Virus record (IMG/VR): IMGVR_UViG_3300049489_000088
Location: 1-30,118 of that record
Origin: a virus
DNA: 30,118 nucleotides
Direction: 5' to 3' (one strand)
Shown: positions 27,697-30,118 of the stretch, in pieces
Layout of the letters: every line of letters begins with the position of its first letter
Numbering within the stretch: position 1 is the first letter of the stretch
The notes under the pieces: generated by a model
What the model was told of the DNA's origin: nothing
Database searches by the model: none
The model's input: only the letters and a program-made list of their open reading frames with translations
Translations under genes and position numbers: made by a program

Positions 27697-28099
27697 CGGC
27701 GTTAATCACCGCAGGCGGTTCGAGCAGCGGCATGAGCTGCCCGCAGGCGTGCATCTCGCGCAAGAATTCCTCGATCTTGACGGTGCCGGAGACGATCAGG
27801 CGTGCGGGCGGTTCGACCTGCGGTTCGACCTGGACAGGTTCCGGCGGTTCGGCCTGGGCGGGTTTGCCGCAGGCGTAGCCCAGCAGCAGCGCGGCCGCTT
27901 GCACGTCGCCTTGGGTCGCCAGCGCCACGAGAGTCTTGACGACCCGCTTCACGTCGGCAGGTGTCACGGTTTTCAGCAGTTCGGCCCGCAGGCGCGCCGT
28001 CCGGGCACCATGCGGGTTCCCGGGCCCGCCCGGGTTTCCCGGCGCGAAGCGGCCCGAAGCGGCCCTGCCGTTTGCGCCGTTTGCTAACCGAGCGTTCAT
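27650..28099 (-). CDS. probable small terminase-equivalent protein (DUF5681-like start)
   Basis: A 149-residue protein starting in an ATGA overlap. It begins with a Gly/Arg/Pro-rich motif (GRFAPGNPGGPGNPHG) similar to DUF5681-type proteins that often lie just before terminase. This is followed by a helical region LRAELLKTVTPADVKRVVKT and ALATQGDVQAAALLLGYACG. The centre is a Pro/Glu/Val-rich linker with a duplicated VEPQVEPP element. Location directly upstream of, and overlapping, the large terminase makes it the best candidate for the DNA-recognition subunit, but no clear helix-turn-helix was confirmed. Confidence 0.6.
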   Translation of the reverse strand: MNARLANGANGRAASGRFAPGNPGGPGNPHGARTARLRAELLKTVTPADVKRVVKTLVALATQGDVQAAALLLGYACGKPAQAEPPEPVQVEPQVEPPARLIVSGTVKIEEFLREMHACGQLMPLLEPPAVINADAEIKKNIGDNGTVN

Positions 28100-28533
28100 G
28101 ACACCCTCCCAGTCCGCGCCTTGAACGCGGCAAGCGCGGCCTCATGCGCCCGATACCACCGAACCAGCGCCTTTCGCAACCCGGCGAGTTGCTCCGGCCC
28201 GTAGGGTCGCCACGTCCCGATACCGCCTATCGCTGCTTCCGATGCGGTAATCTCGGCGCTCAGGTCAAGGCGATGCTCGCTCACCCAGCCAATCGCCCCC
28301 GGGATGTACCGCTTGCCCATCTCGCCCAACGCCCGGTTGACCAACACCTCGAAGTCGGCGGATCCATCCGGCGGCGGGCTTGCGAGGCGCTTGAGCAGTT
28401 CGGGCTTGTTGGCCCGGATCGCCTGCCGAAGGTCATCGTCGAGCGCCAAGCCGTCGATCACCACAACGCCGGAGCCAGCACTGATAGTCCCGCCCCGCTG
28501 GCGGACGGTGGCAATCACTTCGTCGGCGGTCAT
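28096..28533 (-). CDS. TubC-docking-domain-like protein
   Basis: A 145-residue protein with a very strong AGGAGGTG site before the ATG at 28533. Residues 1-52 resemble the TubC N-terminal docking domain: EVIATVRQRGGTISAGSGVV, then a segment with DDDLRQAIRANKPELLKRL. The spacer contains Pro. Residues 60-145 form a second helical region with WRPYGPEQLAGLRKALVRWY. Domains of this kind occur in phage and plasmid replication-region proteins, though the partner is not known. It lies immediately after the other TubC-like protein and before the terminase cassette. Confidence 0.6.
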   Translation of the reverse strand: MTADEVIATVRQRGGTISAGSGVVVIDGLALDDDLRQAIRANKPELLKRLASPPPDGSADFEVLVNRALGEMGKRYIPGAIGWVSEHRLDLSAEITASEAAIGGIGTWRPYGPEQLAGLRKALVRWYRAHEAALAAFKARTGRVS

Positions 28534-28535
28534 CG

Positions 28536-28973
28536 CTACACCTCCTCATGAACAGGCTGGGGAAAATTCCCCACGTCGTCGAGCAGCGGATCCGGCGACG
28601 GTTCCCGGTCCCGGACACTGGCGGGCATTTCGTCGTCTCGCGAGGGTTCGCACGGTCCCGCAACGGTCGGCAGAGGCAAGGTGCCCAAGGTGCCCATCCC
28701 CGGGCGTTGGGCATCTTGGGCATCTTGGGCATCTTGGGCATCTTGCCCTGTCATCGGAAGCGCCCAAAGCCATCCGGCCCCGCCGATCTTGTTCGGCTTG
28801 ATGCGTAGTTGTTCGCGCGCCCGGCGCAAGGTCTTGGCGGATATCCCCGCCCCCCGGGCGTCCCGCTGGACGTCGGCGAGAACCGTCGCAGGCCGAACAA
28901 ACACCTTCCCGTTTTCGACGGACAAGGTGGCGCCCCTGCCCTTGAGGGTTTCAACCAGCATGTCGCAGGTCAT
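28536..28973 (-). CDS. TubC-like N-terminus fused to primase/helicase-type tail
   Basis: A 145-residue protein. The ATG at 28973 (MTCDMLVETLKG) follows GGAGG by nine bases; the longer open frame lacks support. Residues 1-40 look like a TubC docking domain. Residues 41-73 (ISAKTLRRAREQLRIK and GGAGWLWALP) match the wing-helix end seen in AAA-type phage/plasmid replicative helicases ('isw.TLrRAkk.l.v....g..W.W.LP'). Residues 77-89 are DAQ repeats from a 9-bp tandem DNA repeat. The last 32 residues repeat those of the next gene upstream. It is too short for a helicase and probably a remnant or adaptor. Confidence 0.6.
   Translation of the reverse strand: MTCDMLVETLKGRGATLSVENGKVFVRPATVLADVQRDARGAGISAKTLRRAREQLRIKPNKIGGAGWLWALPMTGQDAQDAQDAQDAQRPGMGTLGTLPLPTVAGPCEPSRDDEMPASVRDREPSPDPLLDDVGNFPQPVHEEV
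28555..28636 (-). repeat. 82-bp direct repeat, copy A
   Basis: This segment pairs with 28997-29078 at a constant offset of 442 bp and appears about 80% identical. It includes the near-palindrome TGGGGAA-AA-TTCCCCA at 28558-28573. It encodes the C-terminal peptide DEMPASVRDREPSPDPLL and following residues in the reading frame of the surrounding gene. Confidence 0.85.
28677..28727 (-). repeat. long inverted repeat with 20-bp arms
   Basis: The arm at 28677-28696 pairs with 28708-28727 around an 11-base loop, with two non-Watson-Crick positions (G-U if the plus strand is RNA, A-C on the mRNA strand). The left arm holds two AAGGTGCCC units, and the right arm lies in the 9-bp GCATCTTGG array. It falls in the coding region for the Gly-Thr-Leu repeat and DAQ repeat. 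Confidence 0.75.
28711..28746 (-). repeat. 9-bp tandem array, four units
   Basis: Four contiguous units of GCATCTTGG (last unit ends C) encode DAQ repeats on the minus strand. Because the unit is a multiple of three, copy number could vary without breaking the frame. There are no spacers of CRISPR length. Confidence 0.85.
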
Positions 28974-28996
28974 ATCAGAATTCCTCCCCTTCAGCG

Positions 28997-29078
28997 GTTT
29001 GGGGGATATTCCCCACCGGGTCAAGCAGCGGATCCGGCGACGGTAGCCGGTCCCGGACACTTTCGGGCATTTCGTCGT
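28997..29078 (-). repeat. 82-bp direct repeat, copy B
   Basis: Copy B of the 442-bp-offset repeat. It has the near-palindrome TGGGGGATATTCCCCA at 29000-29015 in the same position as copy A. It encodes DEMPESVRDRLPSPDPLL near the C-terminus of the DUF3987-type tail, in the same relative reading frame as copy A, which suggests gene duplication rather than chance. Confidence 0.85.
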
Positions 29079-29095
29079 TCTCCGACCCCAAAGTC

Positions 29096-29150
29096 TGCGA
29101 CATAATGCGACATAATTCCCCCGAGGGTATTTTGGTCGCATTATGTCGCA
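29096..29150 (-). repeat. perfect 16-bp inverted repeat with iteron-like 10-mers
   Basis: TGCGACATAATGCGAC at 29096-29111 pairs perfectly with GTCGCATTATGTCGCA at 29135-29150, with a 23-base loop. The 10-mer GCGACATAAT occurs twice in tandem at 29097-29116 and once inverted at 29140-29149. The array is inside the DUF3987-type tail and encodes VRHNAT and RIMSQT. Confidence 0.85.
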
Positions 29151-29341
29151 CGTTTTCAGGGACGGATTGTGCCGCGTGCCAGCGCTCGATTGGACGGCCG
29201 CGCCCTCCGGGATGTTCGGTCTCGCACCTCGCTCGCCCGGATTCCAGAAGTCCGACCAAGACTTGGGCCACCCGATCCGCCTTGGCGTGCCGCCCCAGCA
29301 GGTCCCGGATATCGGTCCGGGTCAGGCCGGACGGCGACCGT

Positions 29342-29647
29342 TCAAGCGCTGTCAAGATCTCGTCGCCTACCGGATCGCCCAGCCGATCGCCGAACAGATA
29401 CTTCGCCGACCGTTCGCAGTAATCCCAGATCGCCAGAGCAGCCCGAAGGTGGGCTTCCCCGATCGCGCTCGCTCCGTCCAGGCACGAATCGGTCAACGTC
29501 CTGCTTGGCCTTCAGTGTGTCATGTGCCTTCTCCATGCGATCAGCACTACTGGTGCCTATGATCTCGCGTTCGCGATATGCGCCCAGCGCGCATTTGTCC
29601 GCCTGCGCGAGTTTGAGTGCCTGGTCCCCGATGTACCGACTACTCAT
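29342..29647 (-). CDS. short ORF possibly broken at junction with DUF3987 tail
   Basis: The ATG at 29647 overlaps the preceding stop by eight bases. The first ~55 residues look coding (SSRYIGDQALKLAQADKCAL, then helical SADRMEKAHDTLKAKQD). After about residue 56 the composition changes to Arg, Ser and Gly rich text, which is the DUF3987 tail read out of frame. The overlap with that tail is 155 bases. This suggests the original gene was truncated near 29500, and its current stop was acquired from the neighbour. No family recognised; no clear ribosome site. Confidence 0.4.
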   Translation of the reverse strand: MSSRYIGDQALKLAQADKCALGAYREREIIGTSSADRMEKAHDTLKAKQDVDRFVPGRSERDRGSPPSGCSGDLGLLRTVGEVSVRRSAGRSGRRRDLDSA

Positions 29648-29969
29648 GGTGGGTGCCGATCTCCACAGCCTGATCTACGGCCCGGTCAAACGCGACGATC
29701 TGCCAGCCGATTGACGGCGGCATCTGGCACGCATCGGTTGCGGCGCGGATCAGCCGGTACTCCGGCTCTGACAGATCGAGCGTCGGGCCGAGGCCGGCGC
29801 GGAGCCGGGCCATGATCTGCGCGTGGATTGCGCGGGCGGGTTTATTCGCGCCCGCCGGAGGGTACGCGTCCAGGACTGACGCGAGGTAGTCCGCTAGCGT
29901 GTAGCGCTGCGGATCGGATGTCCCGGATCGGATCGTGATCGGATCCGGGACGGTGATCGAGTGATTCAT
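29640..29969 (-). CDS. small phage protein upstream of replication remnants, unknown
   Basis: A 109-residue protein. The ATG at 29969 (MNHSITVPDPI) is preferred to the ATG at 29990 because its last bases overlap the stop of the upstream partial gene in the ATGA manner seen throughout this genome. It has a helical middle with TLADYLASVLDAYPPAGANK and AIHAQIMARLRAGLG. Then comes a conserved-looking segment SEPEYRLIRAATDACQMP. No motif for binding or catalysis was recognised. Confidence 0.55.
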   Translation of the reverse strand: MNHSITVPDPITIRSGTSDPQRYTLADYLASVLDAYPPAGANKPARAIHAQIMARLRAGLGPTLDLSEPEYRLIRAATDACQMPPSIGWQIVAFDRAVDQAVEIGTHHE

Positions 29970-30118
29970 GCCGGGATGGTAGCTATCCATGTATCAGGCC
30001 GCAAGAGAAAGTAAACCGACCAACCAGATCCACTGGTGGGTCGGCGAACTACCGGGTACGGGGCCGGGTCCGTCCACTCGTCGTCGGGGCAGGTTCCCGC
30101 GGACGCCCGCCGCGGGTC
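29966..30118 (-). CDS. C-terminal end of a gene beginning outside window
   Basis: A frame open from the window edge to a TGA at 29968-29966, giving about 50 residues including TCPDDEWTDPAPYP and VYFLLRPDTWIATIPA. It overlaps the next gene by ATGA, which supports this reading frame. Nothing can be said about its identity because the larger part is missing. Confidence 0.45.
   Translation of the reverse strand, partial: DPRRASAGTCPDDEWTDPAPYPVVRRPTSGSGWSVYFLLRPDTWIATIPA

Follow-up and report, generated by a model that had tools for sequence, protein, structure and literature searches.

Organisation of the locus

The window analysed here, the whole 30,118-base stretch of DNA that makes up IMG/VR virus record IMGVR_UViG_3300049489_000088, contains terminase, Mu-like portal and capsid genes and is coded mostly on the minus strand. 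Two adjacent genes on this strand, referred to as A (28975-29496) and B (28536-28973), are the subject of this analysis. In both, the same parts follow in the same order: a predicted DNA-binding domain, an inverted array of short repeats resembling iterons, and a tail. All coordinates refer to the window, and features lie on the minus strand unless stated otherwise.

Gene A, delimited by its open reading frame (ORF), a family hidden Markov model (HMM) and alignment with a relative, L083, encodes a putative orphan origin-binding protein of 173 amino acids with no ATPase part. Its sole start codon, TTG, is uncertain, and the upstream frame is closed by stop codons. The winged-helix domain (residues 14-108, positions 29173-29457) is placed by an AlphaFold model and by matches in the PDB. 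It is followed by array A (29096-29150), with two TGCGACATAA-type units per arm at 10-bp spacing around a GC-rich centre, and by tail copy A (28983-29078, beginning DEMPESVRDRLPSPDPLLDPVGNIPQ). Gene B encodes 145 amino acids and has a TubC_N-like start (28890-28973), a winged helix of the AAA_25-helicase type that ends in WLWALP (28755-28880, from alignments and the model), array B (28678-28746), in which GATGCCCAA units at 9-bp spacing face GGTGCCCAA units, and tail copy B (28541-28636, beginning DEMPASVRDREPSPDPLLDDVGNFPQ). Both arrays were delimited by repeat analysis and folding.

Identity of the two domains

Neither protein has a Pfam or PHROG family match above cut-off. Protein A matches only columns 474-582 of the 587 in an HMM of DUF3987 helicases (domain E = 2.3e-39), and both this HMM and a 52-sequence alignment place the C-terminal winged helix of DUF3987 primase-helicases in A. 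The ATPase domain of DUF3987 gave no match in A with Pfam, and the family HMM covers the end columns only; A corresponds to the winged helix with which DUF3987 primase-helicases terminate, and their ATPase is absent. The AlphaFold model is a confident winged helix (pLDDT about 95 in the domain), with helices at residues 42-53, 60-67 and 73-85 and wing strands at 89-94 and 103-108, and its fold matches in the PDB are winged-helix regulators. The domain of B aligns with the C-terminal winged helix of AAA_25 helicases, which ends in W.W.LP, and on this alignment it is that domain which B carries. No Pfam match to the RecA-like AAA_25 domain was found in B, the modelled winged helix is less certain than that of A, and a fold search of B against the PDB returned no significant match. 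The initial annotation had described A and B as different replication-related proteins, which agrees with both being C-terminal ends of replication helicases.

Relatives were drawn from planctomycete genomes and IMG/VR viruses, and were found via one genome match, whole-genome searches and a later alignment query. Single-sequence searches for relatives of A and B in the viral_contigs, phages and plasmids collections found none, nor were any detected at useful E-values in 80 terminase-related phage loci. The single relative with the A domain to come from the genome scan, L083, is a DUF3987 helicase of a Planctomycetia metagenome-assembled genome (45% identity). Its gene ends in an inverted repeat of 23 bp, perfectly paired around a loop of 3 bases and made of ACGA-type units, that has no sequence in common with the window. 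Searches of planctomycete genomes yielded 82 loci with the A domain, and further genome searches added no new loci beyond repeats and a few weak ones. In full-length A-type relatives the domain forms the C-terminal end of DUF3987 proteins, some of which have Prim-Pol, PriCT or Toprim primase parts (DUF3987 in 12 of 20, Prim-Pol in 5 and Toprim in 1), and AAA_25 is present in all 18 full-length B-type relatives. Helicase and putative origin-binding domain are therefore united in one protein in the relatives, but not in A or B.

Inverted arrays behind the domains

A large inverted repeat had been annotated in each gene, and both are borne out. The one at 29096-29150 has arms of 26 bases and a loop of 3, and is 85% complementary; the second spans approximately 28678-28746, as opposed to the 28677-28727 given initially. 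The key feature, absent from the initial annotation, is that both consist of opposed arrays of short tandem units of 9-10 bp.

Such arrays occur in clear excess behind the corresponding domains of the relatives. Inverted repeats with a score of at least 14 lie directly behind the A domain in 35 of 76 loci, compared with 7 of 649 control windows taken elsewhere in the same loci (Fisher p = 2e-31), and their positional profile peaks at the domain end. At a score of at least 12, the figures are 21 of 33 against 8 of 217 control windows for the B type (p = 5e-16) and 7 of 20 against 6 of 392 for an independent viral set (p = 3e-7). Direct copies lie 9 bp apart far more often than at any other distance (for the A-type and viral sets together, 312 compared with 11 in a control stretch; 78 for B), and, since this spacing is seen both in coding sequence and behind stop codons, it is not simply a codon effect. 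The sequences of the units vary from locus to locus. The array at about 3395-3520 in L243, with approximately nine GCGCGGTAA-type units of 9/10 bp behind a DUF3987 helicase, is far longer than usual. No comparable array was found at the gene end in the actinobacterial DUF3987 phages Ibantik, P318, Ponzi and Success, or in Nonomuraea.

Between the arms, the first of which frequently closes with AAG and leads into consecutive C residues (L123, L148, L242, L245, L258 and others), runs of at least four C or G are found in 24 of 50 A-type spacers and 201 of 1000 controls, and in 6 of 19 B-type spacers and 72 of 380 controls. Being only moderately enriched in A-type loci and not in B, this feature was not used.

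Both window hairpins fold, as single-stranded DNA, far better than shuffled sequences (z = -8.0 for array A and -3.8 for array B), as terminators, attenuators or structures controlling translation would, and an RNA regulatory structure was among the functions initially suggested. No Rfam match was found for either hairpin, however, and the constant feature among the relatives is the direct 9-bp spacing, the spacers ranging from 3 to 90 bases. As the units also covary with the protein, which is not expected of RNA, this suggestion is not supported, and it is highly improbable that the hairpins act in this form.

Among 32 loci selected by hand, 22 have a tyrosine integrase gene next in line. Another recurrent neighbour downstream of the array is a small gene whose product begins M..YL..A.. 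(for instance MGKYLDIARKL or MPDYLSIARRA; L120, L131, L245, L247, L250). In L119 (763-1794), a winged-helix end and an inverted array with 32-bp arms adjoin an integrase-like ORF in a different frame, with no helicase, forming another orphan module.

This position of the repeats, at the 3' end of one gene and ahead of the next, would suit repression or coupling, and iteron initiators often regulate their own expression; the array might then be an operator through which the winged helix controls its own gene or the following one (TubC_N-like gene or integrase), with no origin function. This is rather improbable given that the domain belongs to primase-helicases, that the array lies behind or within the gene and not at its promoter, and that the nearest tested precedents are origins (PMC7581432, PMC4234260). 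A primase-helicase winged helix that covaries with short repeats at the 3' end of its gene, commonly with an integrase gene following, has the features to be expected of an integrative element's initiator and origin.

Covariation between domain and repeat

In the A family, similarity of the domain tracks similarity of the repeats (Mantel r = 0.22, 0 of 5000 permutations). Once overall identity is removed, the alignment column that best accounts for shared repeats is that of the residue just before the recognition helix (0 of 1000), which is His70 of A (codon 29287-29289, placed by the covariation and the AlphaFold model) and which tracks the first base of the unit. His at this position goes with GCG units and Asn with ACG units, by 16:1 against 1:17 at the bacterial loci, 8:0 against 0:5 at the viral loci (p = 8e-4), and 25:1 against 1:22 when all loci and window A are combined (p = 1e-11). 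The automated rule looks for XCG....AA repeated at 9 bp, on either strand and within 200 bp, and fires in 50 of 1529 control windows. Most loci lacking a first-pass repeat set also follow the pattern (His, 7 to 2; Asn, 1 to 1). When the recognition region is left out of the tree, the residue changes 12 times (Fitch) and the base 14 times, and concordance is seen in all nine independent contrasts, among them the closely related L243 and L244. Window A conforms, combining His70 with GCGACATAA, of which ACGACATAA is the ACG-type counterpart. Given this correspondence between residue and base, it is very probable that the repeats are read by the domain and that the two form an iteron-type initiator/origin module.

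Two further observations concern this region of the domain. The helicases of L243 and L244 are close, come from one metagenome and have His with GCGCGGTAA and Asn with ACGATTTAA units, respectively, which looks like a recent change of specificity. A Lys before the key Asn (GKN) tends to accompany GGGAG- or GGAGG-type units (L116, L119, L121, L138, L143), and might be a second letter of the code.

The GCGACATAA unit of window A recurs at the viral locus L242, there at 9-bp spacing, and relatives of A and B adjoin integrases. Orphan origin-binding domains of phage ICP1 act against satellites (PMC8263062), and A and B could likewise occupy the iterons of satellites or integrative elements that have DUF3987 or AAA_25 initiators, or their arrays could titrate those initiators, in the manner of Odn but with no nuclease. 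Such an anti-satellite role is very unlikely here: no nuclease or other effector domain is present in A or B, and the phage keeps matching arrays of its own, to which the two proteins would bind as well.

The shared tail and its probable duplication

The copied segment at an offset of 442 bp in the initial annotation is real and longer than described. Tail copies 28541-28636 and 28983-29078 are identical at 79 of 96 nucleotides at an offset of exactly 442, compared with 46 identities for the next best ungapped 96-mer in the window (background mean 25.5, s.d. 4.5). The reading frames are preserved and the C-terminal peptide is common to A and B (DEMPxSVRDRxPSPDPLLD), as had been noted. The near-palindrome TGGGGA..TTCCCCA is likewise present in both copies (TGGGGGATATTCCCCA at 29000-29015 in A and TGGGGAAAATTCCCCA at 28558-28573 in B, neither assigned to a strand), but that in A folds no better than shuffled sequences (z = -0.5). 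A local alignment of 135 bp, pairing 28944-29078 with 28504-28636, spans the ribosome-binding site and first codons of the following gene, B or C, and blastp relates the beginning of B to that of C (E = 1e-4). The tail copy thus looks like a segmental duplication that took in the start of the following gene, which makes the recombination target proposed initially unnecessary.

Gene C (28096-28533) encodes a small TubC_N-like protein, with a weak match to TubC_N (E = 0.048) that lies below the Pfam cut-off; TubC_N-like segments begin B and make up C. Small segments of this kind are also seen in the tails of L142, L153, L156, L157, L162 and L167, where they come after the iteron array, either adjoining the helicase or forming its C-terminus. 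Upstream of A, a 116-amino-acid ORF (29640-29990) has no family match, and no helicase was seen between it and A.

The main alternative to a functional pair of modules is that the phage captured integrative elements of which A and B are the decaying remains, with the helicase bodies lost and winged-helix ends and arrays retained that no longer function. The lack of an ATPase in either protein, the TTG start of A with its stopped upstream frame, and the orphan end joined to an integrase fragment in L119 would all agree with this. Decay is nevertheless unlikely: both frames are intact across domain, array and tail, His70 still matches a GCG unit, and two such genes in a row with a common tail would hardly arise through decay alone. 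The tail has moreover been kept at 79 of 96 positions, and its copies differ by five amino-acid and two silent codon changes (dN 0.15 and dS 0.30, from few sites).

Proposed function of A and B

The O protein of phage lambda has an N-terminal binding domain, iterons inside the initiator gene and a C-terminal part that recruits the helicase loader. It is probable that A and B are each a comparable unit, an iteron-type initiator/origin module with a recruiter tail; the binding, the origin function and the role of the tail are what we infer. The winged helix would derive from a primase-helicase of a mobile element, of the DUF3987 type in A and the AAA_25 type in B, in which it formed the origin-binding C-terminus, and would bind the short units of the inverted array inside its own gene. 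The conserved tail behind the array would most likely recruit the next replication factor, either a helicase or a loader. Lacking a helicase body, the two proteins would act in the manner of lambda O and not as self-loading helicases. Duplication of the tail together with the ribosome-binding site and first codons of the gene behind it would have provided two different DNA-binding domains with one tail.

Of the four functions suggested in the initial annotation, that of an origin element has the best support as far as the repeat arrays are concerned, since iteron-like units adjoin a primase-helicase winged helix and covary with a residue of that domain; tandem short repeats next to a putative initiator gene are found in both A and B. 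A common binding peptide is a reasonable reading of the tail, in which two different DNA-binding domains have one C-terminus, and the lambda-O order of domain, iterons and tail makes a common recruiter the best interpretation, its role being assigned by analogy. More tentatively, and with somewhat less than even confidence, the locus may comprise two complete and differently specific initiator/origin modules in tandem on one recruitment tail, along with a His/Asn-to-G/A code of the DUF3987 winged helix that would allow origins to be predicted.

Several points weigh against these proposals. The missing helicase bodies admit the possibility of remnants, the record may be incomplete, such that a phage helicase may lie outside it, and the role of the tail is argued from analogy. 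Approximately half of the relatives have no clear inverted array under the criteria used. No AT-rich unwinding element is evident, the spacers having a GC content of 0.59 and the loci 0.61, with the flanks not scanned systematically. A switch in GC skew is uninformative as a sign of an origin here, the record being only 30 kb long and almost all of its genes having the same orientation. For B, the Mantel result is driven partly by near-identical loci. The code column was chosen from about 90 that were screened in the bacterial set, before the viral loci were fetched; the His/Asn prediction was likewise earlier than the viral search, but the counting rule took its exact form only once the viral sequences had been printed, and the test is hence a good one and not a blind one. 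Finally, window A has a 10-bp spacing and not one of 9 bp, owing to which it is missed by the strict automated rule and was assigned by hand.

Comparison with known replication systems

In lambda O as in A/B, the iterons lie within the gene itself and separate the binding domain from the C-terminal part. No sequence relation was found, however, there being no Pfam match to the lambda O family (Phage_rep_O) in A or B, and the opposed arrays of 9-10-bp units and the two tandem genes with one shared tail set A/B apart.

In SaPI Rep and SCCmec Cch2, the C-terminal domain binds iterons that lie downstream of the respective gene (PMC7581432). The SaPI Rep/ori pair, and Cch2 with its putative ori, resemble A/B in having a helicase C-terminal DNA-binding domain, short repeats directly downstream of the gene and a specificity that differs between elements (PMC7581432). 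By contrast, A and B lack a helicase body, have opposed 9-10-bp arrays inside the coding sequence with the shared tail behind them, and belong to the DUF3987 and AAA_25 families. In the crenarchaeal plasmid pRN1, a stem-loop downstream of the primase-helicase gene is required for replication; the C-terminal winged helix and the 3' stem-loop are again as in A/B, and similar stem-loops have been reported in bacteriophages such as BIP-1 (PMC4234260). Whereas pRN1 is described as lacking iterons (PMC4234260), the arms found here are made of tandem units that covary with the protein.

That phages can carry orphan origin-binding domains is a point in common with the PLE RepA/ori system and the phage protein Odn (PMC8263062). 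PLE RepA differs from A/B in its RepA_N domain and semi-palindromic iterons of approximately 30 bp (PMC8263062), and Odn in the nuclease domain fused to its origin-binding domain, no nuclease being present in A or B. The layout of the window, with two putative origin-binding domains and one tail, bears on the swapping of replication modules between phages and satellites.

DUF3987 is still listed as of unknown function in Pfam. In PrimPol-PV1 proteins, which combine DUF3987 with a C-terminal winged helix and so have the same domain families, recognition of the origin by the winged helix has been suggested (PMC5862659), and before this analysis it was a suggestion only. The likely binding site of the DUF3987 winged helix can now be given as the inverted arrays of 9-bp units with which the gene closes at its 3' end, and the correspondence between residue and base would predict that site across planctomycete elements and viruses. 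If this holds, the origins of uncharacterised mobile elements would be predictable from sequence. The available text of the PrimPol-PV1 report (PMC5862659) proposes neither a binding site nor a specificity residue; here, candidates for both have been identified from covariation.
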